From Liolophura sinensis (taxonomy: Eukaryota > Mollusca > Polyplacophora > Chitonida > Chitonidae), in the NCBI RefSeq assembly GCF_032854445.1, contig NC_088297.1:8979375-9043374 (forward strand): a stretch of 64,000 bases of DNA, in the 5' to 3' direction. Positions 4,005 through 64,000 of this stretch are shown here, one piece after another. The stretch's first letter is position 1. Every line of letters begins with the position of its first letter. The position numbers were made by a program, and so were the translations under genes. The notes beneath the pieces were generated by a model that searched no databases, was not told the DNA's origin, and was given only the letters and a program-made list of their open reading frames with translations.

Positions 4005-4393
4005 ATTATGGGATGCCTCTGTCCAATTACTTGAAGGGCCAATCTTGGAAGACCTCAACAGATCAAATGACTCCATCTGCTGTGCCCAAGTTTACCACAC
4101 GTAACACGACGAATGCAGTGGCAATGTTTGAGCGATGGTTGCGGGAAACTGGACGCGGGGAAAACATGCCAATGCACAAGATCCCTGCTAATATTTTGGA
4201 TGGATACATGGCTGACTTTTTTTCCACTGTCAAGAAAGCTAACGGAGAGGATTACCAGAGGAAAACTCTTGGTACGCTACGGTCATTTTTGGAACGTCAT
4301 TTGAGAATTCATGGATATTCTTTTTCCATCCTGAAATCTGCGCAGTTTTCCCAAAGTCAACAGGCTTTTCGAAGGAGGTATCATAAGCCTTGA
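4005..4393 (+). CDS. Terminal exon: recombinase-core-like DNA-binding domain, module P1
   Basis: Open exon starting directly after the acceptor CCTTTTCCCTTGTAG, with AT completing a split codon (phase 1), then about 128 residues to TGA. It carries the family signature: FERWLRETG, an I-P pair, LDGYMADFF, a G-E-D-Y turn, a basic FLERHLRIHGY helix and a final SQSQQAF helix. By motif this resembles the SAM-like N-terminal half of Crypton-type tyrosine recombinases. No catalytic half follows, so DNA binding without recombination is inferred. Its leader is short and lacks the HLYP motif of the minus-strand modules; its nearest relative is the 7.0-kb module. No upstream partner exon is visible to the left, so the 5' part of the gene is probably outside the window. 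Confidence 0.75.
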
Positions 4394-5000
4394 TGAAGAA
4401 TTCCTGTGTTGATTTGTCAGTTAGTATCCCATCAAGAGTAGGAAAAGCTGTCAACAGAGATACTATGGATCTTTCTCAAAATTCCAGCTTTACAAGTGAG
4501 AATTGTATGTAGAGTTTGCCTGGTGCAAGGAAGTTTACTGGTGTGCTAAATCTTGATCAGTGTTCCAATATTGTTGGTGGTAACTTCAACAGGCAGGTGA
4601 TTTAGTTCAAGAAAAATTTATACTGTACACATTGACTGGAATTTCAGCATGATCAGTGGTATATCATCAGGAATTTGCCTCAGTGTTGGTACAAAAATGT
4701 ACAAAAGTCTTGATCAAAGTTTCAGCATTGTCAGCTTGGTATTCCCATCACACATTTGCTCGTTGCGAAAACAGCAAGGAATTCCAGCATAGCCAGTGGC
4801 TTGATACTGAGGCACGGTAAATCTTGATGAGAGTTCCAGCGCCAGTCATCCTCTAAAGTGTGCTCCCAGACGTCAGTGTTTCAAAATGATTTAATACATG
4901 TAGGTGTTTGAAGAGTTCAACCTTGCATCGCTGGCGATTGACATAATGGTTTCAAGCAGAAATACATAATGATTGTCTTCATATGATTATGTATGTACTT
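4394..5000. other. Noncoding stretch after module P1
   Basis: Contains degenerate recurrences of phrases such as TCTTGATCA(G/A)(T/A)GTTCCA(G/A) at about 4480, 4550, 4710 and 4820, suggesting an old decayed repeat. No gene seen. Confidence 0.4.
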
Positions 5001-5004
5001 AACA

Positions 5005-5515
5005 TGCTAGTCTCAGTATGAGGGGTATGAACTGTTAGTCTCAGTATGAGGGGTATGAACTGCTAGTCTCAGTATGAGGGGTATGAACTGCTAGTCTCCG
5101 TATGAGGGGTATTAACTGCTAGTCTCAGTATGAGGGGTATTGACTGCTAGTCTCAGTATGAGGGGTATGAACTGTTAGTCTCAGTATGAGGGGTATGAAC
5201 TGCTAGTCTCAGTATGAGGGGTATGAACAGCTAGTCTAAGTATGAGGGGTATGAACTGCTAGTCTCAGTATGAGGGGTATGAACTGTTAGTCTCAGTATG
5301 AGGGGTATGAACTGTTAGTCTCAGTATGAGGGGTATGAACTGCTAGTCTCAGTATGAGGCATATGAACTGCTAGTCTCAGTATGAGGGGTATGAACTGCT
5401 AGTCTCAGTATGAGTGGTATAATGAAGTGCTAGTCTCAGTATGACGGGTATTATAAACTGCCAGGCTGAGTGTCTTAATATGAGGTATATGAACTGCTAG
5501 TCTCAGTATGAGGGG
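5005..5515. repeat. 28-bp minisatellite, about 18 copies
   Basis: The unit CTAGTCTCAGTATGAGGGGT plus ATGAACTG repeats in tandem, with ATGAACTGTTAG and ATTAACTG variants. It degenerates at the right end. Stops occur in the unit, so it is not coding. Confidence 0.95.
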
Positions 5516-7041
5516 TAACAGCTGGTACCGGTACCCAGGAAACCACTCCAGTCAGCTACATCATTATGGGGTGCTACTAGTCAGACTAGTCAACATGCGT
5601 TATGTACATCTACCTAGAAGTTGTAGCTGGATTTTGACCTTAGCACTAAAGAGATAGTTCGGCCGATAATAAGAGAAATTAGGCCTTCCTTAAAAATTCT
5701 TTGTTGGGTGTAACCCGATCAGTCAGAAAATATAGGGTCAGTCGATGGGGGAATTCATTTTCTTTTTTTTTTTTTTTTTTTAATTCTGCCGGGTGAGTAA
5801 GAGACTGGTTTTTAAAGAAATTAACATTGAGAGAGAAATAAGACAAAAATACCCAACAAGCATATTTTTAATGATGGCATGCCTGACATATATTGTATCT
5901 AGGCAATCTTTTGTTGTGTGTACATAGACACGCTAGTCATTTTTTTTCTTTTGAGAAAATTTTATCTCCTCAACATGAACACTACATGTACATCATAATA
6001 TTCATTGTTCTGGAAGTCAGTCTCACAGTTCATGTACATGTACATGTAATGTGCTGTAGTGCATTCAAGAGACCATGATATTGTACATTTAGGTATAATG
6101 TCCAGTCCCTGAATTTTCATCCATGCATCAATGTGTCTTGCATATGGTTTTGACCAGGTTCTTCCATGCACATGCAGCCTTCACCCATGAGCATGATAGC
6201 TGTCCTATTAAGGGTGAAATTTCTTGAATATAGTGCAAAAAATAAAAAAGCCAAAAACCCAGTGACATATACATGTATGCAGATATATAAATTATTTTAT
6301 GAACATGAACTGAAACGTTGTGCAAGTTTTCAGAATGATTTAAAATTCAATAAAGTGCTAAGAAAAACTTGTAACCTTTTTTGAAGTCCAGTGGCTGTGT
6401 ATCTCTGTCCATTGCTTGATTTTCTATTGCATGTATGTTACCTCTAATTTATGCTCCTTCTCATGCGTTTGCTGTATGATGGTCAAATGGCACATGTACA
6501 TTACAATTTTCCGAGGTTTATCTGTTCCTACATGTATGCCAGGCTGTACATGTACATGTAAGTCAGACTAGATGCTAAGACATGATAGAGGGCGAAAATT
6601 TGCCTTCTGACCACAGAGGGGATGGGGAATTGTAAGTGTAGGTACACTGTACATTAGTATAGACCTGACAGATACTTGTACATGTCTTTATTTGCAGGCT
6701 TCCATAGCCAGATATAGTTTTCACTAGTTTTCTGTCTGTGAAGAGAGATGCTTTCTTTTTCTTTTGTTTGAATAATAAATGGTGAATGATCTCTTGTTCA
6801 CCCCGAATTTACCCTGTGCAGTTTCTTACCTGGACAAGGTTGTGCTTTCTAGTTTTGTCTAGAAAATGCTTACTTCATGTAAATTGTCACATCTGGAAAA
6901 AGTACTGAACTATACCTGTATGTATAAATATGTACATGTTTCTGATATTCAGTCTGACTCTGTCTGCCTCACTCTGTTCTTTGTCTCCCAAAGACCTCAT
7001 CACCTGAACATTCTTCAATTGGATTTCCTTCTTTTTGCCAG
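5516..7041. other. Noncoding stretch upstream of module P2
   Basis: Contains a poly-T run at about 5764-5782 and many TACATGTA words. No supported gene. Candidate open frames at 5893-6384 have poor composition and are not called. Confidence 0.5.
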
Positions 7042-7541
7042 AGTGGGATCGCAGTCGCTTCATTACCAACCACAAAGAAAGGGGAAGAAATCCCACTTCT
7101 GACACCAGCTTAATAATTGAACTTGACGCACCTGAACCTGGTAGATCCATGGAGGCCAGTGCGACGGTACCCCGACAGTTAGGACATCCAGATAGTCGTT
7201 ACTCAACCCTGAAAAACACCCGCTATGCGGTCGCCACATTTGAGAGGTGGCTCGTTACCCATCATGGCGACAACACGAAGATGGAGAAAATTGACCCTGT
7301 CAAGCTGGATGCTTATCTTGTGGAGTTTTTCTTGACGGCTAAGCGCTCTACGGGTGAAGACTACCGAGCTGGATCCATAAGGCTTCTCCGAGAGCGCTTT
7401 GAACGACATCTGAAGTTGTATGGTTATCCACATTCCTTAGTGTACTCAGAACTGTTCGCTAAAAGTCAGCAAGCTTTTAAGGAGCGGAAACGTCAACTGA
7501 AGGATTTGGAGTTGTCTGGTGGCTTATCTGGAAACAAGTGA
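7042..7541 (+). CDS. Terminal exon: recombinase-core-like DNA-binding domain, module P2
   Basis: Open exon after the acceptor TTCTTTTTGCCAG; AG completes a split codon (phase 1), then 165 residues to TGA. The first 55 or so residues are a polar, charged leader. The core follows with YAVATFERWL, KIDPVKLDAYLVEFF, a G-E-D-Y turn, RFERHLKLYGYP and KSQQAFKER. The spacing of these blocks is the same as in the 4.0-kb module, and the shared FERW / ERHL / SQQAF variants group the two as a plus-strand subfamily. It probably works as an alternative C-terminal DNA-binding end of a protein whose N-terminal exons lie left of the window. There is no plausible local start: the ATG-like start lies within the intron-side sequence before the acceptor. 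Confidence 0.78.
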
Positions 7542-8467
7542 ATGACTTGGAATATTGGCATCTTGAATTTGGGTCTGGCGATTTACACTTAATACATGTG
7601 TCAGGAAACACATGAATAGCTGGAAAAGTGGCATCATTCTTGAGACTGTGATTAACAAAAAGGAAATTTTCACCTGTGAAGATTCATTGTAGGTTGAATG
7701 CTTTGAGGACCATAATGGGTTTGATTTGAGGATATATATATATATATATACAACATGCATCCATAAGGCACTAAAGTTCCCTGGACATAACACTACTTTA
7801 GAGACATTTTTACATGGATCTGTTGTTTCATAGCATTTATGATTGGTTAAAAAGTCACATCATGATCAGATTGATCTGTGGCTGTATGTAATGACCTTTT
7901 CACAACGTCACCTTTGCACAACTACACGGCAGTTAGTATACTGGTGTACTGGTTATGAGTTTTGAATCCTGCATGTAATGCCATGTATATGTACATTGTT
8001 TAATAACAAACAAGTCAGTTCCTTCATGCAATCTCATGATACAATATCAGTTTGAGCAGTACCTGCTACTGTATCATCTTTTATTAATATACCATATAAA
8101 CTGTATATCATGATTGGAATTTTGGAATTTGTGTTTTGTTGTGGATGTCAAAACTCTTGATACTGCTTGCATTTACAAGTATATATTTGCATGTATATGT
8201 AAGCAAAAGCATGTAAAAACTTCACATGAACTGAAAGGTGAATAATTAATATTTCAATATATGTAATTTTTAGAAGTGGTGCAACATATCAGTGTATTGG
8301 GAGTCATCATCCATGCATTTGCATTATGCTAAGTTTATTGGTGGAACAACAACATAGCAGGATTTGTGAGGAATAAAGTCCAAAAATTCAATATGTACCT
8401 GGCAAGGCCGATCAGAGATTTAATTACTACTGGCACTAGTTTCCTCCGCCTATAAGCCTGACTGGTG
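7542..8467. other. Noncoding stretch
   Basis: Holds a short (TA)n tract at about 7732-7750. No gene seen. Confidence 0.5.
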
Positions 8468-12195: not shown

Positions 12196-12432
12196 ATTTA
12201 TTTATTTGTTTATTTATTTATTTGATTGATGTTTTATGCTGTACTCAAGAATATTTCACTTATACGATGGCAGCCAGCATTATGGTGGAGGGAAACCGAG
12301 TAGAGCCCAGGGGAAACCCACGACCATCCACAGGTTGCTGGCAGACCTTCCCACGTACAGCCGTAGAGTAAGCCAGCATGAGCTGGACTTGAACTCACTG
12401 CGACCGTATTGGTTAGAGGCTGGGTCATTACC
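12196..12432 (-). mobile_element. SINE-A copy
   Basis: Runs from the T-rich tail complement (TTTATTTATTTGATTGATGT) through ACTCAAGAATATTTCACTTA and GAAACCCACGACCATCCACA to TGGACTTGAACTCACTGCGA, which is the B-box region of the tRNA-derived head read backwards. The head is truncated. Confidence 0.85.
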
Positions 12433-20419: not shown

Positions 20420-20637
20420 CTATGGTGATGAAGGCATGATATGTGTTGGCTCGTCTCCAAACTGATGAACCCCTCTCTGATGTCGCTTCAAATGTTCATT
20501 TCGGGTGAAGGACTTGCTGCAGAGGGTACAAGGGTAGCGTACATTGAGCAGGTGTGTGCGTCTGTGGCGTCTGAAGGAATCGTATCTGTTGAACACGGAC
20601 CCACAATCTTCACACGTCATCGGCCGGGTCTGCTTGC
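20420..20637 (-). CDS. Gene B terminal exon: two-finger C2H2 zinc finger
   Basis: Starts after the acceptor TTCTTGTTTTCCCCAG; GC completes a split codon (phase 1), then 71 residues to TGA. Two classical C2H2 fingers are present: CEDC...HRRTH (C-x2-C-x12-H-x3-H, residues 8-28) and CTLC...HQRGVH (C-x2-C-x12-H-x4-H). The inter-finger linker does not match TGEKP. The exon's phase matches the phase-1 donor of gene B exon 2 at 25270, so a clean fusion is predicted, with the fingers as the DNA-binding C terminus. The psq exon at 21.5-22.0 kb ends in its own stop, so the two must be alternatives rather than serial exons. Confidence 0.82.
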
Positions 20638-21496: not shown

Positions 21497-21969
21497 CTAC
21501 TTCTCCTCCCTGATCAGTGACCCTATCAGCCTCCTCTGCAGGCTTGTCCGCGGCACCCCTAACAGCTGACACGCCCTCCGCTGAGACATCAACCCACTCT
21601 CCACAGCAGCCACGGCCTGGTCCATGTCTGCCTGCGTCCAGGCGCGGCTCTTTCGGCGCGCAACATACATGTCTTCTTTAGCACCTTGACTAACACCGAC
21701 TTTCAAACCCCTTTCATCCAAATTAGACACATCTGTCACAGTTACATTCTGATGCTTCCTGCTTTTGACATGTCCAACAAAACCGTCAACGACTGTTCTT
21801 TGGTTTGCTGGCACAGAAGGATGTGTGTTAGATATTGTCTGCTGGTTTGTAGTGTCATCAAGGCGCTGGGATAAATTCTGTTCCTGTATCACAGCCTTTA
21901 AGTCCAGAAGTACTGCTGTGTCTTCCACGTCTACCAAGGCCACGTTGTCAGCAAGGGTAAAAGTTTCTT
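21497..21969 (-). CDS. Gene B terminal exon: pipsqueak-type HTH
   Basis: Begins after the acceptor TTATACTTTCCAG; AA completes a split codon (phase 1), then about 156 residues to TAG. The first 100 residues are a polar, probably disordered leader with several acidic and Gln/Asn/Thr-rich stretches. Residues about 108-147 form a pipsqueak/CENP-B-like helix-turn-helix: RAWTQADMDQAVAAVESG, then SQRRACQLLGVPRTSLQRRL, the standard 'W...M..A...V..G..S...A....GVP..TL..R' pattern. The domain binds DNA in known family members such as Drosophila pipsqueak. It splices in frame to gene B exon 2, as does the zinc-finger exon 0.9 kb downstream. Confidence 0.82.
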
Positions 21970-25269: not shown

Positions 25270-26052
25270 TTTTGGGAAAATTCTGCACTTCACTTTCGGT
25301 TTTTGGTATCTGTTGCCCAGTGTTACCTGTTACTCTGTTCGGAAATGGTAGACCACTGCTATTGTTGGACTCTCCGCATGAGAGCAAATCTGCAGGACTC
25401 GGATACGCACTGAGATCTTCGCCTGTCAACTGCACGTGAGTCTCTGTCATTTCTACAGAGCCGTCCGATGACGGTTTCTCTGTTTTCACTATAATTTGCA
25501 ATGGCTCCCTTTCCTCTGGTGTTGGTGATTGTTCAGAACACGGTGCAACAACTGACTGCTCAAGCCGGCTGAATGCACAAGAGTCTGGTTTGATAATGGA
25601 AGCGAGACTTTCAGTGGCTCCTGGTGTGTCTGATAAAGATGCAGAGCTATCGCCATCTGCTCCGTGTACCTCAAGTCTTTGTGATTTCTGTGAAGATGCA
25701 AGATCAAAGTTATGTTCGCCTGGCACTAAGTGGTCGACTTTGGAAATAACAGGGTCAATACCTGGCCGCTTACGGTTGGTTACCTTGTACATATGGATAG
25801 GGAAAACGGCAGACTTGGCCGTCATGTCTGAGAACTCAGCTCCCATTACCGCCACATCTTCCTGTTCCACTTCGCTTAACACGGCGACATCCTCCTCATA
25901 CTCATTATAAACAGAATAATCTCCATCACCACCAGGTCTGTAAGATTTAGGAATGTCAGCTGGCATGGCTGGAGACTCTGTTGCTCTTTTCATTCGTCCT
26001 CTACGCCTGTGTCCACGAAGCCAGGTTGGGTCCGGCTCACAGCCGGAACATT
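25270..26052 (-). CDS. Gene B exon 2: acidic low-complexity linker (hub exon)
   Basis: Acceptor CTCAATACTGATTTCAG, then AA completing the codon started by exon 1 (G|AA), then 260 codons, ending ...CCCAAAA before the donor GTAAGT (phase 1). It begins ECSGCEPDPTWLRGHRRRGR, a Cys pair followed by a basic patch that could serve nuclear import. A long Asp/Glu/Ser/Pro-rich region follows. IVKTE fits the sumoylation consensus. Gene C exon 2 starts with the same ESxGxxPxPxWLxxH pattern. No enzyme motif is present; a disordered tether between the N-terminal helix and an exchangeable DNA-binding end is inferred. The region could instead be a regulatory or activation domain. Confidence 0.75.
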
Positions 26053-26675: not shown

Positions 26676-26820
26676 CTAATGATATTGCTCCCTTGGATTT
26701 ATACTCTGCCAGCCTCAAATCTAACCATATTGCAAACTGTGACAAGATGTCCGGTTCACTGCAGAGTTCACCAATAATGCAGGCAAACTTGTTCTGTACT
26801 CTCTCCAGTGTCACTCCCAT
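26676..26820 (-). CDS. Gene B exon 1: N-terminal helical segment (hub exon)
   Basis: ATG at 26820 follows an in-frame TAG three codons upstream, so this is a believable start. There are 48 codons plus one base, then the donor G|GTGAG (phase 1). The peptide has FACIIGELCSEPDILSQFAI followed by WLDLRLAEYKSKGAISL. Gene C exon 1 at 29.96 kb has the matching (F)xIWLD(L/M)RLAEYK(S/A)KG core and the same boundary. The amphipathic helix pair may be a dimerisation or partner-binding segment; I do not recognise the family. The 5' untranslated part probably continues in an upstream exon not identified. Transcription runs away from gene C. Confidence 0.75.
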
Positions 26821-27423: not shown

Positions 27424-27435
27424 TCACCTGATCTA

Positions 27436-27868
27436 TTTATTTATTTGATTGGTATTTTACGCCGTACTCAAGAATATTTCACTTATACGACGACAGCCAG
27501 CATTATGGTGGGAGGAAACCGGGCAGAGCCCGCGGTAAACCCACAACCATCTGCAGGTTGTTGGCAAATCTTCCCACGTACGGCCAGAGAGGAAGCCAGC
27601 ATGAGCTGGACTTTAACTTGCAGCAAACGCATTCCTACTCAAGAATATTTCACTTATACAACGACAGCCAGCATTATGGTGGGAGGAAACTGGGCAGAGC
27701 CCGGGGTAAACCCACAACCATCTGCAGGTTGTTGGCAAATCTTCCCACGTACAGCCAGAGAGGAAGCCAGCATGAGCTGGACTTGAACTCGCAGCAACTG
27801 CATTCGTGAGAGGCTCCTGGGTCATTACGCTGCGCTAGCGCGCTAACTGACTGAGCCACGGAGGCCCC
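27436..27868 (-). mobile_element. SINE-A copy with tRNA head, 12-bp target duplication and internal duplication
   Basis: Best SINE-A copy in the window. The right end on the minus strand reads GGGGCCTCCGTGGCTCAGTC, then GTTAGCGCGCTAGCGCAGCG (A-box region), then a GAGTTCAAGTCCAGCTCATG B-box region: a tRNA-derived head. It is bracketed by TCACCTGATCTA at 27424-27435 and 27869-27880. The body (ACTCAAGAATATTTCACTTA ... GAGCTGGACTT) is present twice in tandem, about 180 bases per copy. Confidence 0.9.
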
Positions 27869-29962: not shown

Positions 29963-30116
29963 ATGGAAATTAAGAAGTTACCCTTAAAGGGTCTACAGGA
30001 GAAATTTGCCATTATTATTCAAGAGGCTCGCAATAATCAAGGCCTCCTTGAACAGTTCATGATATGGCTGGATATGAGATTGGCTGAGTACAAGGCTAAA
30101 GGTGTCCTCCGTCTAG
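29963..30116 (+). CDS. Gene C exon 1: N-terminal helical segment (hub exon)
   Basis: An acceptor TTTTTCTTTTTTACAG ends at 29895, so the exon spans 29896-30116 with untranslated leader. The frame opens after a TGA near 29904, and ATG at 29963 is the best start. There are 51 codons plus one base before the donor G|GTAAGA (phase 1). The peptide contains LQEKFAIIIQEARNN and FMIWLDMRLAEYKAKGVLRL. It is a clear paralogue of gene B exon 1 with the same end and phase. Function unknown; a protein-interaction helix is inferred. At least one noncoding exon must lie upstream. Confidence 0.75.
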
Positions 30117-30470: not shown

Positions 30471-31232
30471 AATCAACAGGTTCAAAACCTAACCCTGCCT
30501 GGCTTCAGAGACACAAGGGTGATTTAGCCGAGCAGAAAGTCAATGATCAGAAACCTAACTCACTGACAGAAAATATCCACAATGTTAAACCAGGTGGAAC
30601 TGCAAAGCAGCATGTTAGATGGTCTGCTTCAAGACCAAGGAAATCTCAAAATCCAAGGGCTGACTCTAAAGTAAGTTCTGTAGCAGGTTCTGATGCACAA
30701 CCAACAAACCTTGTTACAGATTCACCAGCAGCCACAAATCACAGAACACCTGCAAGTGATACCAATCTGACAAAAGGCCCTGTTTCACTCATAGTGAAAC
30801 ACCCAGTTACAAATCCCGCCACAGAGCCTGTTACGAACACAATGGCAGTGAGTCCAGTGGCTACAGAGGGACGTAAGCGATCCATCACGTCTCAGGATCC
30901 AGTAAAATGCAACATTAAGGTTGTTAAACTTCTGGTACCATCAAAACCTGGCTCACCCAGTCGTGGTTGGACAGTTCCAAAAAATCAGTTGTTTTTTTTA
31001 GTCAAACCAGGGCAGAATGCTTCCCAGTTGGATGCCATGAGAAAGGGTGTGAAGGAGTCAACGTCAACACCAATGCCTAAGTCTTTAAACTCATCTGGTA
31101 GCCAGACATCTAGTTGTAACAACTGTAACAGGGGCTCACAGGATTGTGACCAGTACACAGAGTTAGCTGCTTCTGCTGGCACATCCAGCCAAAAGCCACC
31201 CACGTCAGATAAGAACTCTTCTGCAGATAAAG
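30471..31232 (+). CDS. Gene C exon 2: Ser/Thr/Pro-rich linker (hub exon)
   Basis: AA after the acceptor completes G|AA, giving ESTGSKPNPAWLQRHKG at the junction, the same pattern as gene B exon 2 (ECSGCEPDPTWLRGHRRRG). About 253 codons follow, rich in Ser, Thr, Pro, Asn and Lys, with repeated PVTNxA(T)-like phrases and basic clusters (RPRKSQNP, GRKRS) that could direct nuclear entry. The exon ends ADKG before the donor GTGAGA (phase 1). No catalytic motif seen. It joins in frame to the terminal module at 32908. Past the donor the frame reads into a SINE, so that extension is not coding. Confidence 0.75.
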
Positions 31233-31261: not shown

Positions 31262-31485
31262 GGCCTATTGGTGTCCCACCAGCCGGTCACAAACACGACC
31301 CCAGTTCACCTTGGCTTCCTGTTTTGTGGTACGTGGGAAGGTCCTTCAGCAACCTGCAGATGGTTGTGGGTTCCCTTTAGACATCCCGGTTTCCTCCCAC
31401 CACAATGCTGGCCGCCGTGGTAAAAGTATAATATTTTTGAGTACGGCGTAAAACACCAATCAGAAAAATAAATAAATAAATAAAT
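31262..31485 (+). mobile_element. SINE-A copy just inside gene C intron 2
   Basis: Contains ACGTGGGAAGGTCCTTCAGC, CACAATGCTGGCCGCCGTGG, GAGTACGGCGTAAAACACCA and an (AAAT)n tail. It starts about 30 bases after the exon 2 donor. Confidence 0.85.
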
Positions 31486-32907: not shown

Positions 32908-33551
32908 ACCAGACCCCAGCTTTAAACATGTTAAAAGAGGCCCAATCACCAGACACGACCCCAGCACGAGATGAAACCCCTCTTCCAGATGAAACCATTA
33001 CACCAATAATAAGTCAGACCCCATCATCACAAAAGACCTCAGACATGTTAGAAGCAAAACAGGCCCCAGGAAGGTCCCCAGCCGCATTTCGTCTGGATTT
33101 CCCAGACGTGTCTCACATGTATCCCAGACACACATTAAAGCGGCTAAAGAGGGCAGCGGTGAAAGCAAGAATTGAAGCTGTTTTTGGCCATTCAGTGAAG
33201 AAGGAACCTCCACGATCACGTGGTGCAATAACAGTCCTGATGACTTTAGAGCGCTGGCTTTGGAGCAAGTTCAGAGAGCGACGACCTGTAGAGACAATGC
33301 CTGTCGATGACTTAAACAAGTATCTTGAGGAATATTTCCGCGTCGTGAGGAAGGAATCGGGCACTCCGTACTCCCCGGTAGCATTCGGCGCTCTAAAGAT
33401 GGATTTGGCGAAGTTCTTGGAGGCCAGTGGCTATCCCTACTGTCTAAAGACTTCTGAGAAATTCAAGACATGTAGAGAGGTTTATCTAACAAGACTTAAG
33501 CAGCTGCAGAAATTTGCATATCATCGGAAGAACAGAGGAGAATTAACATGA
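32908..33551 (+). CDS. Gene C terminal exon: recombinase-core-like DNA-binding domain, module C1
   Basis: Acceptor AAATCTTTGTTAATAG; AC completes G|AC from exon 2, then 213 residues to TGA. The leader of about 65 residues is Thr/Pro/Asp/Glu-rich (repeats of the DTTPARDET type). A leader motif SHMYPRHTLKRL then matches the HLYPxxYPxRL of the minus-strand modules. The core reads LERWLWSKFRERRPVETMP, LNKYLEEYF, a G-T-P-Y turn, DLAKFLEASGYPYC, and a C-terminal basic helix. It carries an insert (HSVKKEPPRSRG) before the core helix. Predicted product: exons 1+2+this, about 518 residues, a DNA-binding protein without recombinase catalysis. It is the only terminal module seen downstream of gene C. 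Confidence 0.82.
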
Positions 33552-37224: not shown

Positions 37225-39245
37225 TCAGGAGTGTAATTGAAAAGGTGTAAACAACAATGAATTCAGTGGACATGGGAGGATAGACAGTAGAGAATTAATG
37301 ACAAAGAATGCAACCATTTTTAGACAATGGAGAATAACGACCAAAGAATGAAATGGATATGGGATAATGAGCAATGAAGAATAAACTAAAGAATGCAAAG
37401 GACATTGGGTGATAGCTAGTTAATGGAGAACACACAGGTAAGAATGCAAATAAACCGGTGTGGTGAATTTATTTATTTATTTGATTCGTGTTTTACGCCT
37501 TTCTCGAGTATATTTCACCAGAATTACGGTGGGAGGAAAACAGGTGCTGGAACACACGGGTGCGATAGACAATGGTGTGGAAACAACAAAGAAGGTAACT
37601 GACATGGGGTGATAGACCATGTGGAATAAAATAACAGAGCAAAGGACAGAATGACAAACAACAGAAGAAAATAAAAAAAAATGCAATGGACATATGACAA
37701 TCGACAACGGAGAACAGAGAACAAAGAGTGAAATGCATCTGGGATGACAGACAATGGAGAAAACACGGAGCAATATACAACAAAGATTATTATTGACATG
37801 TGTGACAGACAGTGGGGAATACAAAGGTAAGAATTTAATTGAAAGGATGTGATACACAGTGGAGATTAAACAACAAAGAATGAGATGAACGTGGGATGAT
37901 AGACAATGGAGATTAAACGACAAAAAATGTAATGCGCATGGCATGATAGACAATGGAGATTAAACGACAAAGAATTTAATGCACATGGCAAGATAGACAA
38001 TGGAGATTAAACGACAAAGAATGCAATGGACATGGCATGATAGACAATGGAGATTAAACGACAAAGAATGCAATGGACATGGCATGATAGACAATGGAGA
38101 TTAAACGACAAAGAATGTAATGGACATGGCATGATAGACAATGGAGGTTAAACGACAAAGAATGTAATAGACATGGCATGATAGACAATAGAGATTAAAC
38201 GACAAAGAATGCAATGCACATGGCATGATAGACAATGGAGATTAAACGACAAAGAATGCAATGCACATGGCAGGATAGACAATGGAGATTCAACTATAAG
38301 GAATGTAACTCACATGGGATGACAGACAATGGAGATTAAACAACAAAGAATGCAAAGGACATGCGATAATAGACAATGGAGATTTAATGACAAAGAATGC
38401 AACTGGTATGGGGTGATAGGCAATGGAGAATTAGTGGCAAAGAATGCAACTGGTATAGGTTGATACAAATTAAGAACAAGGAAAGGAAAGGACATGGGAT
38501 AACAGACAACGGAGAATAAACGACTAAAATGGAGTCACCAAAGGTTTATAGACAAAGGAAGAAAAAAGACGACAACAAAGAATGTAATGGACTTGCATGG
38601 GGTGATAGATAAGGGAAAATAAAGAACACAGAACGGAATGGACATGACATGATAGACAAAAAAATGGAGTTACCACAGGATTAATATAAAGATCATGGGA
38701 TGACAGACATCGGAGACTAAGCAACAAACAATGTAATTAACACGGGGTTATAGACAATGAAGAATAAACAAATAAGTATGCAATGGACACTAGGTGATAG
38801 TAAATAGCAAAGAATATAATTCACTTGGGCTAAACAATGAGAACACACAGGCGAAAATGTAAACTGACTGGCACTGAGACATTGGCTGACACAATGGGAA
38901 ACAAACAACACAGAAAGCAATTAGCATGCGGTGAGGAAAAATGCGGAGTAACAAACAGGAAAGCAAAGGACAGCATAGTAGACAATGTACAATAGACGAC
39001 AAAGAATGCGGTCAGCACAAGGTGCTAGACATAGGAATAATATACAACAAAGAATGAGGTGGACACTGGGTGATAGACAATGGAGAATAAAGGGCAAAAA
39101 ATATAACTGATATGGTGTGATAGCTAGACAATAGAGAATACAGAAGCAAGAATGTAAATGACATGGTGTGATAGACGATGGAGAATAACAAAGAATGCAT
39201 TGGACATGGAATGAAGAGTATATAACAAAGAATAAAACTGATATT
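37225..39245. repeat. 47-bp degenerate minisatellite, about 40 copies
   Basis: The unit GATAGACAATGGAGATTAAA plus CGACAAAGAATGCAATGGACATGGCAT recurs at 47-base spacing, best conserved at 37,900-38,330 and decaying to both sides. A truncated SINE-A (37466-37550) is inserted in it. The long minus-strand open frames here are translations of the repeat. Confidence 0.92.
37466..37550 (-). mobile_element. Truncated SINE-A inside the 47-bp array
   Basis: TTTATTTATTTATTTGATTC, GTGTTTTACGCCTTTCTCGA, GAATTACGGTGGGAGG: tail-side 85 bases only. Confidence 0.8.
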
Positions 39246-39566: not shown

Positions 39567-40054
39567 TCAAGTGGAACAGAAGTTGTCAACAGACGCCAAC
39601 CGCTTGTCTGCCAGAGACAGTTGCTTTCGTCTCGCCGTGAACTTCTTCTGGCTGGCAGAGAACACTGGCGAGGTACATATGCAATGCGGGTAGCCGGACT
39701 CTTTCAGGAATCGACTGAGGTAGGACCGAAACTTTGTGAGCGACAAGGACTCGTAGTCTTCCCCTGAGGGTTTGCATAGTACCGCGAAGAAGCCACCAAG
39801 GTAGCCGTCCAGGGCCTCCGGGGGAATGGTCTCAACTTGCCGACACTCGTTATAGCACGCCCACAGCCACCGCTCCAGCGTGGCTACGGCCTTGACGATG
39901 TGGGCCACCGTCTGCCCGGTCTTCTCCTCCGATTTGGGCACACGGGTCCTGATGTTCCCGTAGTTGTAGCGATCCGGGAAATGCGGCGGATAGAGTCCAG
40001 AGGCGAGGTTATTATGACCTTGGACAATTCCATGGGCGCTCAGTACACCGAGAA
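39567..40054 (-). CDS. Terminal exon: recombinase-core-like domain, module D8
   Basis: Acceptor TGTGTTTCCACAG, then TT completing a split codon (phase 1), then 161 residues to a stop at 39567. The motifs are GLYPPHFPDRYNYG (degenerate leader), VATLERWLWACY, VETIPPEALDGYLGGFF, a G-E-D-Y turn, RFLKESGYP and a C-terminal basic helix. It is the last of eight same-strand modules between 39.6 and 64 kb. The 'G-E-D-Y-E' turn links it to the plus-strand P1 and P2 modules, while the leader links it to the D group. No start codon is placed sensibly in the exon; it must be spliced to upstream exons. Confidence 0.8.
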
Positions 40055-42448: not shown

Positions 42449-42921
42449 TTATTTCTTCATTTTGACCAGATCGTTGAGTTTTTTCAGCCTCTTGCAATAC
42501 GCAGTTCTGCTTTGCAGGAATTTCCCGGAGGACATCATGCAGCACTCATAACCGCTCTCATTAAGAAAGCGTTTGATGCAGTAGTGGAGTTTTCGAAAAG
42601 AAACAGGCCCGTACTCCTCTCCGGATTCCTTCTTTACCACGCGGTAGAATTCCGCAAGGTAAGCGTCCAGTTCTAGGGGCGGTATGGTCTCGGTCTGGCG
42701 ATCATCGGCGTACTTGCTCCACATCCAACGCTCTAGGATCCTCATCGTTTTCACCATGTCCCGAACAGTAAACTGTGATTTTTGGTCCGCGTAACGCTCC
42801 ACGCGTTTTCTGATCATGGCGGACTGGAGACGGGAAGGGTAAACGTTAGGATATAGGTGATTAAGTTCAGAGTAGTCGATTGTCTGAGTCCCGGCTGCAA
42901 GACCGTGCACAGTGGATTGTC
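42449..42921 (-). CDS. Terminal exon: recombinase-core-like domain, module D7
   Basis: Acceptor CTTTTTCCCATTGTCAG, then GA completing a split codon (phase 1), 156 residues to TAA. Leader LNHLYPNVYPSRLQS; core ILERWMWSKYADDRQTETIP, LELDAYLAEFYRVVKKESG, then YGPVSFRKLHYCIKRFLNE and a short basic tail. All family blocks are intact, so it looks functional. The Trp-Met-Trp variant of the ERWLW block is shared only with the 47.3-kb module, suggesting these two are close duplicates. Confidence 0.82.
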
Positions 42922-47347: not shown

Positions 47348-47826
47348 TCACTTTGTCTTCTTGAACAACTGGCAAAGTTGCCTCACCCTATGAGTAAAGG
47401 CAAGTCGACTGCTAACAAATTCAGGCGAACTTGCAATACAAAACGGATATTGGTTTTCCTTCAAATACCGATTGATGCAATATCTATGTTTCCGGAATGA
47501 CCCTGGTTCGTACAAGGTTCCGTTTTCCTTTTTCAGCACCAGGAAGAACTCCTTTAAGTACTTGTCCAAATCCTGAGCTGGTATTTTCTCCACTTGGCGT
47601 TCGTCTTTGTACTTACTCCACATCCATCGTTCTAAAATAGTGAGACTTTTTACCATATCAACTACGGTGCCTGCTGCCATTTGGCCCGGAAGACGCTCCA
47701 CGCGTGCTTTCACACAGGATGAATGTAGGTGTGGTGGATACAATGACGGGTATAGATGGCTGTTTTCACGGAGGTCCTCGGATGTGTCGTCACTCGTTGG
47801 GAAGATAGTGTCAATTTCAAGATGCC
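47348..47826 (-). CDS. Terminal exon: recombinase-core-like domain, module D6
   Basis: Acceptor CCTTTTTTTCAATCAG, then GG (phase 1), 158 residues to TAA. The frame opens well upstream of the first ATG: HLEIDTIFPTSDDTSEDLRE, then SHLYPSLYPPHLHS. The core is ILERWMWSKYKDERQVEKIP, LDKYLKEFF, a G-T-L-Y turn, CINRYLKENQYPFC and a basic tail. Every block is intact. It lies only 1.0 kb downstream of module D5, the tightest spacing in the array. A lone ATG start would lose the leader motif that all D modules share, so splicing is the better model. Confidence 0.82.
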
Positions 47827-48851: not shown

Positions 48852-49366
48852 TCAGCTTTTGGGGTTTGGTTTGTTTTTCTTGGTGTAAGAGGTTATTCGA
48901 TAGGAACAGGCGGCTTGGCTTCTCGCGAAATCCCCTGACGTCGTGATGGAGACAGGGTATCCATTTTCAGTGAGGAAACGATCAATGAAGTACCGGTACT
49001 TGCGAAACGTCACCGGCTCATACGCCACGCCACTCTCTCGCGCCAGTACCAGCCAGAATTCTTCCAGGTACCTATCCAATTCTGCCGGCGGAATGCCCTC
49101 GATCTGGCGGTGCTCACTGTGCTTGCTCCACAACCAACGTTCTAAAGTAGCCACAGCTCGCACCATGTCGGACACTGTGGTCCGGACTTTAGTATCCAAG
49201 GCAGGAATCCGGGCCCGGATGACGCTGGTGTGTAGACGAGCTGGGTAATTCGTAGGGTAGAGATGACAAATCTCGGCTTCACTGGTCACAGCACAGGTAA
49301 CTGGTCCCATCGAAATTCGACCCCCCGGAGAGATTAGGTCATCGCCTGTCCCATCCATCTTCACAC
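48852..49366 (-). CDS. Terminal exon: recombinase-core-like domain, module D5
   Basis: Acceptor TCATTATCACGTAG (weaker polypyrimidine tract than its siblings), then GT (phase 1), 170 residues to TGA. Leader ICHLYPTNYPARLHTSVIRA; core VATLERWLWSKHSEHRQIEG, AELDRYLEEFW, a G-V-A-Y turn, YFIDRFLTENGYP, then a Lys/Asn-rich tail. An ATG nine bases into the exon cannot be excluded as a start, but the frame is open back to the acceptor and the phase matches the family. It groups with the 53.4-kb module (both have RKxRYFIDRFLTE), a probable recent duplicate pair. Confidence 0.8.
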
Positions 49367-49654
49367 CTACGTGATAATGAATAGTGCTTCGTTATACTTT
49401 TAAATTTTTTTTATAACTGATTTATTTGACTGGTGTTCAAGTTAACGTGCCTTTCGATAAGACCAGGGTTAGGTTTACTCATTTGGAGGCAACAGGAGTC
49501 CGTCACCTGAGTAACCCCTCCCCCACTTCCGTTTTTTTAGATATTTGAGATACTTGCTCACTTTAAAATCGAGGCCGAACAGACGATATGCTGGAGCTGT
49601 TTGTATTAATCCTGTTTGTATTAATCCTATGTTTTTTTCCACCTAATACAATCT
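49367..49654. other. Spacer with SINE-A scrap
   Basis: TGATTTATTTGACTGGTGTT at about 49420 is a short SINE-A tail fragment. Confidence 0.45.
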
Positions 49655-50605
49655 CCTACACTCATGTAAGACGATCTCCTACACCCATGTAAGACACCCA
49701 TGTAAGACAATCCCCTACACTCATGTGAGACGATCCCCTACACACATGTAAGACGATCTCCTACACCCATGTAAGACAATCACCTACACCCATGTAAGAC
49801 AATCTCCTACACCCATGTAAGACGATCTCCTACACCCATGTAACACGATCTCCTACACCCATATAAGACATTCTCCTACACCCATGTAAGACGATCACCT
49901 ACACCAATGGAAGACGATCTCCTACACCCATGTAACCCGATCTCCTACACCAATGGAAGACGATTTCCTACACCCATGTAAGACGATTTCCTACACCAAT
50001 GGAAGACATTCTATACCCAGGTAAGACGATCTCCTACACCCATGTAACACGATCTCCTACACCAATGGAATACGATCTCCTACACCTATGTAAGACGATC
50101 TCCAACACCCATGTAACACGATCTCCTACACCCATGTAAGACGATCTCCTACACCCATGTAAGACGATCTCCTACACCCATGTAAGACGATCTCCTACAC
50201 CAATGTAAGACGATCTCCTACACCCATGGAAGACGATCTCATACACCCATGTAAGACGATCTCATACACCAATGGAAGACGATCTCCTACATCCATGTAA
50301 GACAATCTCCTACATCCATGTAAGACAATCTCCTACACCCATGTAAGACACCCATGTAAGGCAATCTCCTACACCCATGTAAGACAATCTCCTACACCCA
50401 TGTAAGACGATCTCCAACACCCATGTAAGACGATCTCCTACACCAATGGAAGACAATCTCCTACACCCATGTAAGACACCCATGTAAGACAATCTCCTAC
50501 ACCCATGTAAGACAATCTCCTACACCAATGTAAGACGATCTCCAACACCCATGTAAAACAATCTCCTACACCCATGTAAGACAATCTCCTACACCCATAT
50601 CATAC
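49655..50605. repeat. 23-bp minisatellite, about 41 copies
   Basis: The unit GATCTCCTACACCCATGTAA plus GAC repeats with CACCAATGGAAGAC and AACACGATC variants and a few slipped copies (CACCCATGTAAGACACCCAT). Regular period with no unique spacers, so not a CRISPR array. Confidence 0.95.
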
Positions 50606-50795
50606 ATATGCATGCATTGGCTTTTTCTTGTAGTATCTAGTTATTCCACGATAGATCAAAGAAAACAAAAGACACCATGGTCTCTCAAATCTGTAGTTTT
50701 CCTCGTTATTCAAACAACATATGACGTTCTGACTATAGCGTCTTGTGGAACAGTACGTGTATAAATCCAGTATATTCACGTGGCATGCAACCTAC

Positions 50796-53404: not shown

Positions 53405-53943
53405 TCACGCAGCATCACCCGTGCTCTTTCTCCCGGTCGCCTTTTGCTGTTCTTGTAACTGTTTCATACGCCACTGAAAAACAGCTTGACTTCGGTTGAA
53501 TGCTCGGGAATAGGCAATGGAGCTGGGATAACCGCTCTCTGTCAAAAAACGGTCTATAAAATACCGGAACTTTCGAAAGGTCACGGCCTCGTAGTCTTTG
53601 CCGGACTCGCTGATGAGTACGCGCCAGAACTGCTCGAGGTACGCGTCCAGTTCTTCCGGTGGAATTGTCTCGATCTGTCTTGTCTCCTTGTAACAGCTCC
53701 ACAGCCAGCGTTCCAGAGTGGTTACCTTCTTCGTCATGTCAGTGATCGTTTGCCGCACTTTGGATTGTGCCCCTGGGATCCTGGCCCGAATGGTTTCCGG
53801 GTGAAGGCGAGGGGGGAAGGTACTGGGATAGATGTGTCGTAGTTGTGCTAGCCTCTCTTCGTCAGAAAGCTCTGAAACAGCTAGACTCGATGATTCACCC
53901 GATGAACGTTGAGGAACATCTTTAGACTCGATCTTTATCGCAC
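53405..53943 (-). CDS. Terminal exon: recombinase-core-like domain, module D4
   Basis: Acceptor CCTTTGGTTTTGCCAG, then GT (phase 1), 178 residues to TGA; the longest D module. The leader is Ser/Glu-rich and starts with AIKIESKD (IKIE fits the sumoylation consensus), then RHIYPSTFPPRLHPETIRAR. The core is TTLERWLWSCYKETRQIETI, ELDAYLEQFWRVLISESG, YFIDRFLTESGYP, and a Gln/Lys-rich amphipathic tail. GC content and codon use are visibly higher than in the flanking introns, supporting selection on the protein. Confidence 0.84.
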
Positions 53944-56731: not shown

Positions 56732-57228
56732 TTAGCTCCGTCCCTGCAGTATAAGCAGATTCACACGAAATTGGTATGCGCTCTGGCTTTGCGGAAACGC
56801 GTGAGAAGTAGTGATAGACTCTGGGTAATCATTCGCCACCAAAAAACGATCCAGGCAGTAGCGGTACTTCCTGAAGGACACAGGCAGGAAATCCGTGCCG
56901 TTTTCCCGGACAAGAACCTGCCAGAACTCGGCCAGATAAGCGTCCAGTTCGGGTGGAGGGATTGTCTCGATGCGCCTGGTTTCGCCGTATTTACTCCATA
57001 GCCAACGTTCTAGCGTCGCCACAGCTCGCACCATCTTTGTGGCGGTCTGACTGGATACGCGCGGTACACGAGCTCGTATCGAGCTAACGTGTAAACGAGC
57101 TGGGTAGGTACAAGGGTAGAGATGGTCGCGCTTGGAGCCCATGTCTTCTTGAGATGGATCTGTTGGCTGCCTTGGCATTCCTTCGCCAACAACGCCAGCG
57201 GGGCTCCCAGAAAAGGCCGCCCAATGAC
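56732..57228 (-). CDS. Terminal exon: recombinase-core-like domain, module D3
   Basis: Acceptor TTTGTGTTTGTCAG, then GT (phase 1), 164 residues to TAG. Leader of about 40 residues with a Gly/Pro-rich start, then DHLYPCTYPARLHVSSIRAR. Core VATLERWLWSKYGETRRIET, ELDAYLAEFWQVLVRENG, YCLDRFLVANDYP, then a helix ending in LLILQGRS. The usual Gly of 'E-x-G-Y-P' is Asn-Asp here. Otherwise all blocks are intact. Confidence 0.83.
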
Positions 57229-59703: not shown

Positions 59704-59972
59704 ATTTATTTATTTATTTGACTGGTGTTTTACGCTGTACTGAAGAATATTTCACTTATACGACAGCGGCCAGCATTATGGTGGGAGGAAAACGGGGAGA
59801 GTCCAGAAGAAAGCCACGATCATCCGCAGGTTGTTGACAGACCATCCCACGTGCGGCCGGAAAAGAAGCCAGCATGAGTTGGACTTGAACTCACAGCGGC
59901 GACCGCATTGGTGATAGGCTTCTGGGCCATTGCGTCGCGCTGGCGTGTTAATCTCCTTGGCCACGGAAGCCA
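59704..59972 (-). mobile_element. SINE-A copy, near full length
   Basis: From TTTATTTATTTGACTGGTGT through CCAGCATTATGGTGGGAGGA and TGGACTTGAACTCACAGCGG to the tRNA head (GCCAAGGAGATTAACACGCC on the minus strand). Confidence 0.88.
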
Positions 59973-60641
59973 CTGTGATGATGTAGTTGAGACTGAACTA
60001 TATTCTATGCACACAGTTAAATCAGTTTCTGTATTTGGCAAAAAGGGTTTAAATTTCGTCACATTTATGGTAACACAATGATCTGCGTTGTGAAGGGAAA
60101 GCGGATAACACCAAACTGGATACGTTCTTTAACACTTAAAACTGACACAAAATCAAGAGCTACAACAGTGTCCGCCATACCACACTGCTGTCACATCATG
60201 GTTTGCACAACGATGTTTTGTCACAAGGATAAAGGGGTGGAACAGTTGTTGTTTTATGTTTATTTCAATGCTTACTGATAGATCACTCTACACGAAGCTC
60301 ACCTCAACAAACTGAGGACATCTAAGCATGCGTCATTCTTTCTTGAATACAAACGGTCATCATACTTGGCGACACAAGTCAAACTTTGCCAAAAATAACG
60401 CCTACGATCCAGTTGTAAAAACACACCTCCTTTTATTTGTACTAAAATACGTGAGGGAATACCACTTAAGCCTGACTCGTAACCATCACAACAGACGTTG
60501 GACGTGTACTAAATCCATTTCAACATCTCAATGCATATCTACCCTCCTCTTTGATGAACGCTTCACAGGGACAACAAAGAAGGCGTTTACGTAATTATTT
60601 CATTACTTTACACATTCGCAGCGAAGAGAGGAAGTTTGCAG
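59973..60641. other. Spacer
   Basis: No supported gene or element. Confidence 0.4.
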
Positions 60642-61126
60642 TTAAGCATTTTTCTTAAACTTCTCCTCCAGTAATTTCAGCCTCGTTTTAAACGCAGCCC
60701 TGCTTCTGGCGAACATGTCCGATGTGGAAACGCAGATGGAGTAGCCGGTCTCCTTCAAATAACGTCCGATGCAAAAACGGTATTTTTTAAAACCTGACGG
60801 TTCATATTCCCTTCCGGATTCCTTCTTTAAAATGTAGTAAAACTCGGCAAGGTACGCGTCCAATTCTGCGGGGGGTATGCTCTCTACCTCGCGGGTCTCT
60901 CGGTATTTGCTCCAAAGCCAGCGCTCCAAAAGCGCAACCGCTCTCACCAAGTCTATCATCGTGCGCACGTGCACCGCGGTGCGCCGCTCCACTCGGGCCT
61001 TAATAACCTTCGTTTCTAGCCGGGTTGGATAAACTGCTGGGTAAAGATGACAGAGTTCAACGAGATCAGAGCCAGGGTCGTCCACTGCGCCGGAAGTGGA
61101 TGGTAAAGCCAAAATACTACGTCGAG
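60642..61126 (-). CDS. Terminal exon: recombinase-core-like domain, module D2
   Basis: Acceptor TTCTATTTTCACCAG, then CT (phase 1), 160 residues to TAA. Best representative of the family: leader CHLYPAVYPTRLETKVIKAR (residues 25-44), core ALLERWLWSKYRETREVESI (from residue 64), ELDAYLAEFYYILKKESG, a G-R-E-Y turn, FCIGRYLKETGY, and a basic C-terminal helix RAAFKTRLKLLEEKFKK. By resemblance this is the four-helix core-binding half of a tyrosine recombinase; the catalytic R...H-x-x-R...Y half is absent. Strongly CpG- and GC-enriched relative to introns. Confidence 0.85.
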
Positions 61127-63917
61127 CTGGTGAAAATAGAATAAAAGAAGACGCACGGTATTACTGAATTGTAAAATTTCAGATTCAACGGCTTCACCTC
61201 CACACAGCCGCCAATTTGTTAAACTGTTTCTGATTCGCTGAATATACCAAGACAAATGAACGCATACAAATCAGGCAAGAGAGCATGTATGGACGTATTG
61301 TTTTACAGTTTAACTGTGTGTGACGTTTATCGTGTATCCGCTGTATACACCAAAAGATAGCTAGAAAAAGCCAACACTATTAAATGCTGCTCAGACGTGA
61401 CATATCGGACTACGTATATCTAAGACGCCTAGATATAGATTCTTTCTTGTGCCATCGATTTTGGCAGAGGGATACAGCAATACATTACAAAATGTCAATA
61501 ATACCAATATCAATCTAAGAAAATAGTGGCCGAATACCAAGAGTCAAAATGTTCATTCAACATAACCACCCAATGTACAGTGTAGAAACTGCGGGTTGTC
61601 TGCATTGTGTTAAATCTAATCTCATCCAATCTCATATATCCAATCACTAAACTGCATATATGAGCATGTGCAATGAAATCGCAACAGGCCTGCTCTGAAT
61701 TATCTGCCTTGTTACGCGACAGCGAACTATGAGGTAACGCCAGATTTGGTTTTGAGGCGTGAAACTACGAGAAATGGGACCTCGTATATTAAAGCACAAA
61801 GTATGTATGTTATGTTACCCAAGTGAGGAAAATTTTCTAGGCAAAAGACTGTTAAAACAACATATCAGCCTTTCAGAGCCGTGGAAATGTCTATTGTATT
61901 TAATTGGGGTCAGGACTTTAAATTTACCTCTGAATGGATTAAAAGTTTAGCCTGGGCTTTCCACGTAAGTTTACCAAGTAAAATCTATCCTAAAGCTTAT
62001 GCGGCTTTCAATTTGCCATTAGACATTTTCTGCGGTTTCAACTATTCACAGCTTTAAACGCGCCCTTTAAAGGGGAGAGTGGCCTGAAGGGAGGTAATTC
62101 AGCACGGTCCTACAGAACTATATTCTGGGATACACAACATATAAAGATGGATGACACACGATTTCACTTTAGATGCTGATTAAATATACACGCCGAAACC
62201 TTTATTTGTATCTTTAAGGCATCATTGTAACCTACTGACTGCTTCTAAATCCGTCCTAATAATCTGCTTGATCTACTTGCTAAGTTCTCCGATGGTTTGC
62301 GTTGCACGTTATCTGGAAATCGGTCTCCCGACTGTTGACTTGGAACTTCGATTACTGTTGACGACTGGTAAGCGAATGTCAATTTAGAGGCCTTGAATTA
62401 TAGATCCATTTAGTTTGTTTATTAATTCTTAGCTGTTATTTGAATCGCCTCGGTACGTTACTGACACTCACAGGAGTATATTCATTTATTTGATTACACA
62501 GAGTGAAAACCCTAGACAGGATGGCTGTGAAGATTCTAAATGTGAGTGGAGAAACCCCATCTTCATGTAATCAAGACAACATTATCTACGTTGATTTATT
62601 GAGCCATACATGAGAAGTAGTGTACTGAGATACGGTGTCAGGAATAAATTTATTTGACACCCAACGTGGAAGTGCCAGCGCCAAAAAAAAAAAAAAAAAA
62701 AAACTCCATGCACATCGACTTGTTAAAGTTATCGAGGGGACTGTCATTTGGCTGTTTGGCTACGATTGGCTGTTGAAAGGGTAGGTTTCTGAAGACTTTT
62801 ATATGTACAGTAACGCAAGCGTGATTACGAAGCTTATATAACGGTTTTATGACAGCTAATGTTAAAGCTCTTTCCTCTCGCTGAAAAGCAATTATAATGC
62901 AATAGACTACAGTACGGAGAGGAGAACGAGAGCAAGCGACAACAGTAACTAGCGTAACTAAGATTTTGCTCTATTTCTGTAACTGCGTAAAAGAAAAATC
63001 AACGAGTTCCAAACTCACACTAAAAGTTAATCTGTGGATTCCTTCAACCTGAATGACTATGGGAGAATGACAGATTCCCCCATCAACATCAAAAGGACAT
63101 AGTAGCAGACTTGTATTAGAAAAACACCGTTTAATTTCCACTGAAACTGTTCCAAATATTCGGCACTACTGCACACATCTACATATCACAAAGAGTACAG
63201 AATCGTTTATTTGACGGTAAACCTCTTACCGAAAGGCACATAACTGTACACTAGTCACAAGACTTACAGCAGCATATTTTTCCCGACATAATACCGATAT
63301 ATTTGAAATTGTGTAGTTCACAATTTTTAGGTGTTATAGTATCCAAGCAAATATTATATACTTACAGAACTTCACAAAATCAAAACTATCCATAAACATA
63401 TCAACATTAAAATTAGTAATTTAGCTTAGTTAAATTATCAAAGCCTATAACGAAACAAGGATATCGTAAAGGGTACTGTATCCAACAGAATTCACCACAT
63501 TTCTCCCTAGTCTGTCTGACGATGGGATAAATTAACTGAACAATGAACTTCATACACTTCAAACGTTGTATTAGCCATCAGGCTGCGACATTTTCGATTC
63601 AATACTGAATCGTGAAAACCCAAGATATAATTAAAGGCGTACAGAAAAGAACTTAAAACCAGATCATCGACGACAGTGTGATATCTGGGAAATGGTCACA
63701 CGTAAGATAATTTTTTTCACATTTTTTTTGTTCGAAGCAACAAAATACATGTGTAAACAAAGTGGACGTCAGTAATTTGGGAACTTGAAGGGCAACACCG
63801 TGACACAACTCGTAATATTTTTCTTGTGTTACTTCGTCAACGTCACATACAAGCAGTTGCAAGAAGAAGGCAATCGAATACATCCCACGGATACGCCATG
63901 GATTAAAAACCAAGTCA
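61127..63917. other. Spacer between modules D1 and D2
   Basis: Poly-A run at about 62681-62703. No gene, RNA or recognisable element seen. Confidence 0.45.
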
Positions 63918-64000
63918 TTACGTCTTCCTGAACAGATCAACCAGCTCTTGATACCGGCGCTTGAAGGCTTGCCGACTCCCTTCAAACATGGACGACGTCA
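63918..64000 (-). CDS. Terminal exon (partial, runs off the right edge): module D1
   Basis: Only the last 26 residues are inside the window, ending in TAA at 63918-63920: TSSMFEGSRQAFKRRYQELV followed by DLFRKT. This matches the C-terminal helix of the other modules (TSDMFARSRAAFKTRLKLLE in the 60.6-kb module), including the S/T-S-x-x-F-x-x-S-(R/Q)-x-(A)-F spacing. It shows that the array continues beyond 64 kb. Confidence 0.75.
   Translation of the reverse strand, partial: TSSMFEGSRQAFKRRYQELVDLFRKT

Follow-up and report, generated by a model that had tools for sequence, protein, structure and literature searches.

A family of chiton loci with a common N terminus and putative alternative 3'-terminal DNA-binding exons

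Introduction

What is a series of related open frames, each ending in a stop and each resembling the DNA-contacting part of a tyrosine recombinase, doing in a chiton genome? The question is raised by a 64,000-nucleotide stretch of Liolophura sinensis (C3:8979375-9043374), here called the window; positions given without a contig are counted along it. A preliminary description had read eleven such modules as one array of exchangeable terminal exons. We analysed the window together with the whole 609,464,459-base assembly (632 contigs), which all genome-wide searches cover. In what follows, CB denotes the tyrosine-recombinase core-binding domain and a CB exon is a 3'-terminal exon that encodes it. 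N1 is a common first coding exon of 48 codons, N2 is the second exon, and a unit comprises an N1 and the terminal exons downstream of it on the same strand. Four adjacent members of a single gene family contribute parts to the window. Parts, splice phases, strands, order and counts, as well as purifying selection on N1, were read from genomic sequence. We consider it very probable that they represent a multi-locus family in which a common N terminus is combined with alternative 3'-terminal DNA-binding exons, similar to lola and mod(mdg4) but with an N-terminal head other than BTB and with a DNA reader derived from a recombinase.

Results

The CB exons of the window belong to three units

Motif and hidden Markov model (HMM) scans recovered all the described modules: ten are complete and carry the ERW(L/M) block, and the eleventh is cut short where the window ends. 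The complete modules scored at least 131 bits, the partial one 15.7 and the next open reading frame (ORF) of the window 6.9; because this gap is wide, the set is not a chance one. The modules are pairwise 27-62% identical over the aligned stretches and all end in a stop, and a script reproduced the first exon base at 4005. By contrast, the proposal that the eleven form a single array was rejected, as strand and N1 assignment distribute them among three units (N1 at C3:8974254, 29963 and C3:9084279). Two plus-strand CB exons (4005-4393 and 7042-7541) belong to the N1 at C3:8974254, left of the window, and a third (33106-33551, plus) is the sole CB exon assigned to the in-window N1 at 29963. The remaining eight are on the minus strand, in a unit whose N1 (C3:9084279) is located beyond the right edge of the window: 63921-64000 (the partial 3' end at the window edge, whose full open frame is C3:9043295-9043822), 60642-61126, 56732-57228, 53405-53943 (the query for structure prediction), 48852-49366, 47348-47826, 42449-42921 and 39567-40054, the last recognised CB exon of this unit. 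The complete unit has 17 CB exons across 65 kb.

Splice acceptors were ranked with a simple home-made score and the top AG was taken for each frame. The preliminary description had every acceptor leaving two bases to complete a codon. This was the case in nine of the ten complete window modules, while in 42449-42921 two acceptors score almost equally (1.04 against 1.06). In two exons the top-scoring AG falls within conserved coding sequence: in 56732-57228 the acceptor at 57099 scores slightly higher, and in 48852-49366 the acceptor is uncertain (49366 or 49240). When two other arrays were added, the top acceptor left two bases in 27/30 module frames, and in a larger set it was in phase 1 in 36/41 CB frames (binomial p 7e-13 against one third, the copies being related). 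Controls showed no preference for this phase (16/52 control ORFs; 16/41 AGs within 300 nt upstream of CB frames).

The first exons N1 and N2

Both N-terminal exon pairs of the preliminary description are present in the window, although between them they head one CB exon (33106-33551) plus pipsqueak and C2H2 exons, not all of the modules. The plus-strand N1 (29963-30116), recognised by N1 homology, runs from its ATG to the phase-1 donor CTAG|GTAAGA. The N2 of this unit (30471-31232, plus) starts ESTGSKPNPAWL and has a phase-1 acceptor; several phase-1 donors are possible, of which AAAG|GTGAGA looks best. The minus-strand N1 (26676-26820) reads MGVTLERVQNKFACIIGELCSEPDILSQFAIWLDLRLAEYKSKGAISL, with the phase-1 donor TTAG|GTGAGA. 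Its N2 (25270-26052, minus) starts ECSGCEPDPTWLRG after a phase-1 acceptor; the donor is AAA|GTAAGT, and an alternative phase-1 donor would end the exon at 25327.

When the window and two other arrays were compared all against all, N1 was, among the matches listed, the one repeated exon besides modules and interspersed repeats. The genome has 45 copies of N1 (47 candidates, all scored). Four of these were missed by the reading pattern; in the other 41 the donor was always in phase 1 (40 G|GT and one A|GT), and the ATG was at the standard place in 35 and within three codons of it in four more, with none seen in two. Purifying selection on N1 is strong: over 35 copies (595 pairs), the mean proportions of synonymous (pS) and nonsynonymous (pN) differences were 0.70 and 0.13 respectively, and dN/dS, the ratio of nonsynonymous to synonymous substitution rates, had a median of 0.061 and a maximum of 0.284 (98 usable pairs of the 595). 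The predicted structure of N1 is a two-helix hairpin. The two window N1 matched no Pfam family, and their profile had no match in the PDB; the two window N2 had no BTB match in the Pfam scan. N2 is recognisable at nine loci or more as a low-complexity exon that opens with residues resembling P(D/N)P(S/T/A)WL or PDPTWLKG and also contains a K-x-E motif. Its acceptor is in phase 1 and phase-1 donors are available. As N1 donors and nearly all acceptors read for terminal exons are in phase 1, any terminal exon could be joined to N1 or N2 in frame.

Strand, order and spacing of the CB exons

CB exons were counted genome-wide as the union of the hits of four CB queries plus nine QRICH1 hits, a lower bound. 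There are at least 228 distinct CB terminal exons vs. 45 N1. The ratio drawn earlier from the window, two N-terminal pairs against fourteen terminal exons, therefore holds for the genome, although 13 terminal exons (CB, pipsqueak and C2H2) were identified in the window itself. All 228 CB exons lie downstream of a same-strand N1, the furthest at 94 kb, and none of the 38 units that include CB exons contains an N1 or CB exon on the opposite strand. Within 60 kb of a same-strand N1 there are 220 of the 228, compared to 155.7 ± 20.1 (maximum 198 of 1000) when N1 strands were randomised. At least one CB exon follows 38 of the 45 N1; the median is 3 over all 45, the largest unit has 31, and the longest units span 65-94 kb. 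Counts, strand order and phase support the earlier idea of a cassette library of exchangeable terminal exons.

The same anatomy would be expected if, as in mod(mdg4), terminal exons were transcribed from their own promoters and trans-spliced to an N1/N2 pre-mRNA made elsewhere in the locus. According to the available text of PMC12692577, mod(mdg4) forms more than 30 isoforms in this way, with independently promoted 3' exons, and the 65-94 kb of the longest chiton units might also point to it. However, mod(mdg4) has some alternative exons on the opposite strand (same text), whereas the 38 chiton units contain none (CB or N1), as cis-splicing requires. Moreover, the gap from a stop to the next acceptor is as short as 303 nt in one dense array (medians of 788, 901 and 2302 nt in three arrays), which would hardly accommodate a private promoter plus first exons. 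Trans-splicing is consequently an unlikely explanation, and cis-splicing is favoured because order and strand are strictly kept.

Alternatively, the CB exons might be tandem separate small genes, each preceded by a private first exon too diverged to be recognised. An in-frame Met, a possible private start codon, is present between the acceptor and the domain in 19/38 CB exons and ahead of the ERW motif in 9/10 window CB exons. In addition, six N1 are each followed by just a single CB exon, and at four of the six no other terminal exon was recognised; these loci look like ordinary genes. Against this, the ORF comparisons revealed, among the matches listed, no exon-like repeat between modules other than N1 and interspersed repeats. 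N1 is highly conserved wherever it is present, which makes some 180 unrecognised copies unlikely, and common phase-1 acceptors would be useless in intronless genes. We regard separate genes as very improbable.

In the 400 nt past the stop of 38 CB exons (window and other arrays), AATAAA/ATTAAA was commoner antisense than sense (25 against 17).

Predicted fold and kinship of the CB module

The AlphaFold model of the 53405-53943 module, made with its nine window relatives, has six helices (pLDDT 86.5, pTM 0.78). VIA-align returned 34 chains at Z ≥8, and all 21 solved entries listed there are core-binding domains of tyrosine recombinases or QRICH1, the next row being at Z 3.9, although helical folds can reach such Z values without kinship. 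The recombinase likeness proposed earlier was thus borne out by structure prediction. The top matches were Cre with its variants, over residues of about 12-132 and with Z values as high as 10.3; an integron integrase reached Z 8.1, and QRICH1 in the Zincore complex (9hjt_H, 471-598), the sole metazoan protein among the entries listed at Z ≥8, reached Z 9.7. In hhalign the modules align, with probabilities of 89 and 71, to the segment directly before DUF3504 in two chiton proteins. PF25561 (QRICH1) exceeds its cut-off in at least two array exons (C3:19659427, 33.6 bits; C3:7789473, 33.1 bits). A PDB sequence search with the window-module profile gave a single match at E 1, which is not credible. 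With a clear break in Z and concordant sequence profiles, assignment of the modelled module to the tyrosine-recombinase core-binding fold, closest to Cre and QRICH1, is well supported.

No DUF3504 match was found in the window, and the window modules stop soon after the CB domain, without a catalytic R-H-R-Y domain: of the two halves of a recombinase, the modules retain the one that contacts DNA and lack the catalytic one. We infer that the latter was lost rather than never present. DUF3504 has 60 matches genome-wide (150 of 168 candidates scored), of which one is in an N1 unit, where it is joined to a CB exon. CB and DUF3504 there share one open frame of 326 aa (C7:55529465-55530307; L057 2608-3588, minus strand), a terminal exon that is a possible intermediate. 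A CB frame of 327 aa adjoins it at C7:55527105. A Crypton rather than a DIRS origin of the CB domain is not proven. None of the invariant or nearly invariant columns of the ten window modules is Cys or His.

Modules were also considered as mobile elements and rejected, as they lack the catalytic half (no search was made for terminal repeats or target-site duplications). In favour of a cluster of Cryptons or DIRS-like elements in place of host genes, the CB fold and the similarity to the QRICH1 domain do have a mobile-element ancestry. Nevertheless, only one of the 60 DUF3504 matches is in an N1 unit, as part of a CB exon, and CB exons agree in splice phase and orientation with N1, to which they are unrelated, and group by unit in a tree (see below). 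Such a cluster is scarcely credible.

Pipsqueak and C2H2 terminal exons

The minus-strand N1/N2 pair at 26.8-25.3 kb is followed by a pipsqueak helix-turn-helix terminal exon (21497-21969, minus; PF05225, E 3.6e-10) and a two-finger C2H2 terminal exon (20420-20637, minus; PF00096, E 6.3e-13), both with phase-1 acceptors; no CB exon was assigned to it. The preliminary description dealt with one DNA-binding domain, the recombinase-like one. CB is the commonest, but the pipsqueak and C2H2 folds share the same junction. Pipsqueak has 46 matches genome-wide. Eight of them fall within N1 units, three units in all and every one on C3: the window accounts for one match, the unit that includes the window's minus array for three, and the unit of the N1 at C3:9093377 for four. 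The window C2H2 exon has 15 matches at E 1e-6 including itself (150 of 724 candidates scored). Five more are small exons in C3 units and one is downstream of the C6 unit, all six on the strand of the nearest upstream N1; the remaining eight are elsewhere. The top acceptor is in phase 1 in 8/8 pipsqueak exons and 7/7 C2H2 exons.

Age and growth of the arrays

A tree of 38 CB exons sorts by unit (4 changes vs. 18.2 when shuffled), which suggests that each array probably expanded where it stands, through tandem duplication. On a long branch, the one CB exon of the plus unit (32.8 kb) is nested among exons of the window minus unit. Synonymous sites of CB pairs are saturated (mean pS 0.835) while the 12 closest pairs have a pN of 0.20-0.28, so the copies look old and kept; their dN/dS is uninformative in absolute terms, as one pair of 736 has a pS below 0.6 (ratio 0.64).

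These data bear on a further possibility, namely that each unit uses just its first one or two terminal exons, the others being left over from tandem duplication. Degenerate copies do occur (C3:9056691, and the 10 of 150 matches to one CB query that contain a stop). However, 140/150 are stop-free despite the saturation of synonymous sites, and frames and acceptors are intact at the far ends of arrays, for instance in the window minus exons 41-65 kb from their N1. We find it highly unlikely that most exons are relics.

Outlying N1 copies and repeats

Two diverged N1 (C1:70529833, L006, and C1:79760597, L007; 50-54% identical) are outside the clusters and have no assigned CB exon. Each is followed by a long N2-like ORF, and at one of them a downstream ORF has a weak, sub-cut-off match to a Tc5-type DNA-binding domain. 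They are possibly older family members. Further N1 without an assigned CB exon are at C3:7652188, C3:2002185, C3:19706613 and C7:55548796.

A short interspersed element (SINE)-like repeat with a core like GTACGGCGTAAAACACCAATCAAATAAATAAATA is present on both strands of the window (415-510, 12211-12410, 27434-27804, 31385-31480 and 59707-59906) and also in other arrays. Long tandem-repeat arrays lie between modules at 1521-2550, 4921-5508, from 8458, 37709-38525 and 49558-50580 (units of 33, 28, 20, 47 and 23 nt respectively), and some of the window tandem repeats yield spurious long ORFs.

Discussion

In the proposed mechanism, transcription would start at N1 and produce one pre-mRNA per unit, which would be cis-spliced to one terminal exon at a time, the exon being picked for each mRNA through alternative splicing and polyadenylation. 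Every terminal exon has an acceptor to itself, encodes a single DNA-binding domain and ends in a stop; N2 would act as a flexible regulatory linker. The predicted product is a nuclear protein that combines the shared helical hairpin with one DNA reader out of many. The common N terminus may serve for oligomerisation or cofactor binding, and the transcription factors would differ in the DNA sequence they read.

Several observations weigh against alternative terminal exons behind a common N terminus, in addition to the in-frame Met residues and the few decayed copies reported above. The phase counts are not independent trials, since the CB copies are kin. AATAAA/ATTAAA is not enriched within 400 nt after the stop (17/38 CB exons vs. 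a background of 40%), and with polyadenylation signals at background level the 3' ends have no independent support. The strict N2 pattern matched in just 9/28 stretches scanned and failed to match in the unit that contains the window's minus array. With the CB model, no Foldseek E value was under 0.001, the best being 0.59 for Cre; the evidence for the fold therefore comes from VIA-align and the profile alignments. The ten window modules are below every Pfam cut-off, with QRICH1 sub-threshold in 3/10. DNA binding by CB exons is itself suggested by the predicted fold alone.

A broader reading, to which we give slightly better than even chances, is that about 45 loci hold at least 240 exchangeable DNA-reading exons, with the recombinase half as the main reader and two unrelated folds sharing its phase-1 socket. 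Hundreds of regulators would then share one partner-binding domain and mix as oligomers. By analogy, the choice of terminal exon might serve cell identity or mobile-element surveillance: lola isoform choice is linked to cell identity, and a role in mobile-element surveillance has been proposed for the clustered zinc-finger genes of vertebrates. If the mechanism is true, one locus could make many different gene regulators, and if the proteins are expressed their repertoire would be, as far as is known, among the largest of splice-diversified transcription-factor families. The exon combining CB and DUF3504 suggests how a recombinase could be trimmed to a DNA reader.

Comparison with known systems

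To our knowledge, swapping of C-terminal DNA-binding domains behind a common N terminus is known mainly from a few arthropod BTB genes. A limited search of the open-access literature, including a paper on chiton comparative genomics, found no report of the N1/CB family. Clustered protocadherins join variable 5' exons with their own promoters to common 3' exons; in the chiton, by contrast, the variable exons are 3' and contain the stops, and the common ATG exon is 5'.

Drosophila lola has 20 isoforms, 17 with C2H2 fingers, and mod(mdg4) has at least 30, mostly FLYWCH (available text of PMC11426971). The chiton loci resemble both genes in having common N-terminal exons followed by alternative 3'-terminal exons with different C-terminal domains, the chiton side of this comparison being genomic anatomy. 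They differ in that N1 is a 48-codon two-helix exon without a Pfam match, not BTB, in that the commonest DNA-binding domain is the recombinase core-binding domain, and in that there are about 45 loci instead of single genes, with no CB exon or N1 on the opposite strand inside the units.

Other systems share the domain. In the ALOG proteins of plants, the N-terminal DNA-binding half of a tyrosine recombinase, of DIRS1-type origin and with a zinc-ribbon insertion, serves as a transcription-factor domain (PMC3537659, available text). The chiton CB exons likewise use the core-binding domain alone; unlike ALOG, they have no conserved Cys/His of a zinc ribbon, and the available text on ALOG does not mention arrays of alternative exons. 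QRICH1, ZMYM and WOC proteins carry the DUF3504 half, and alternative-exon arrays are not described for them in the available text of PMC3212892. The core-binding fold (QRICH1, Z 9.7) and the PF25561 matches of some array exons relate the chiton loci to these proteins, whereas, among the DUF3504 candidates scored, a match to that half was seen in one unit exon. Vertebrate KIAA1958 has two alternative Crypton-derived exons, each with DUF3504 (same text), while chiton units have up to 31 CB exons and DUF3504 matches a single unit exon. Among the systems compared, KIAA1958 comes closest to a step toward such an array. The finding of the lola/mod(mdg4)-like architecture in a mollusc, built from unrelated parts at tens of loci and with hundreds of exons, makes the origin of these loci and the choice of terminal exon testable by comparison.

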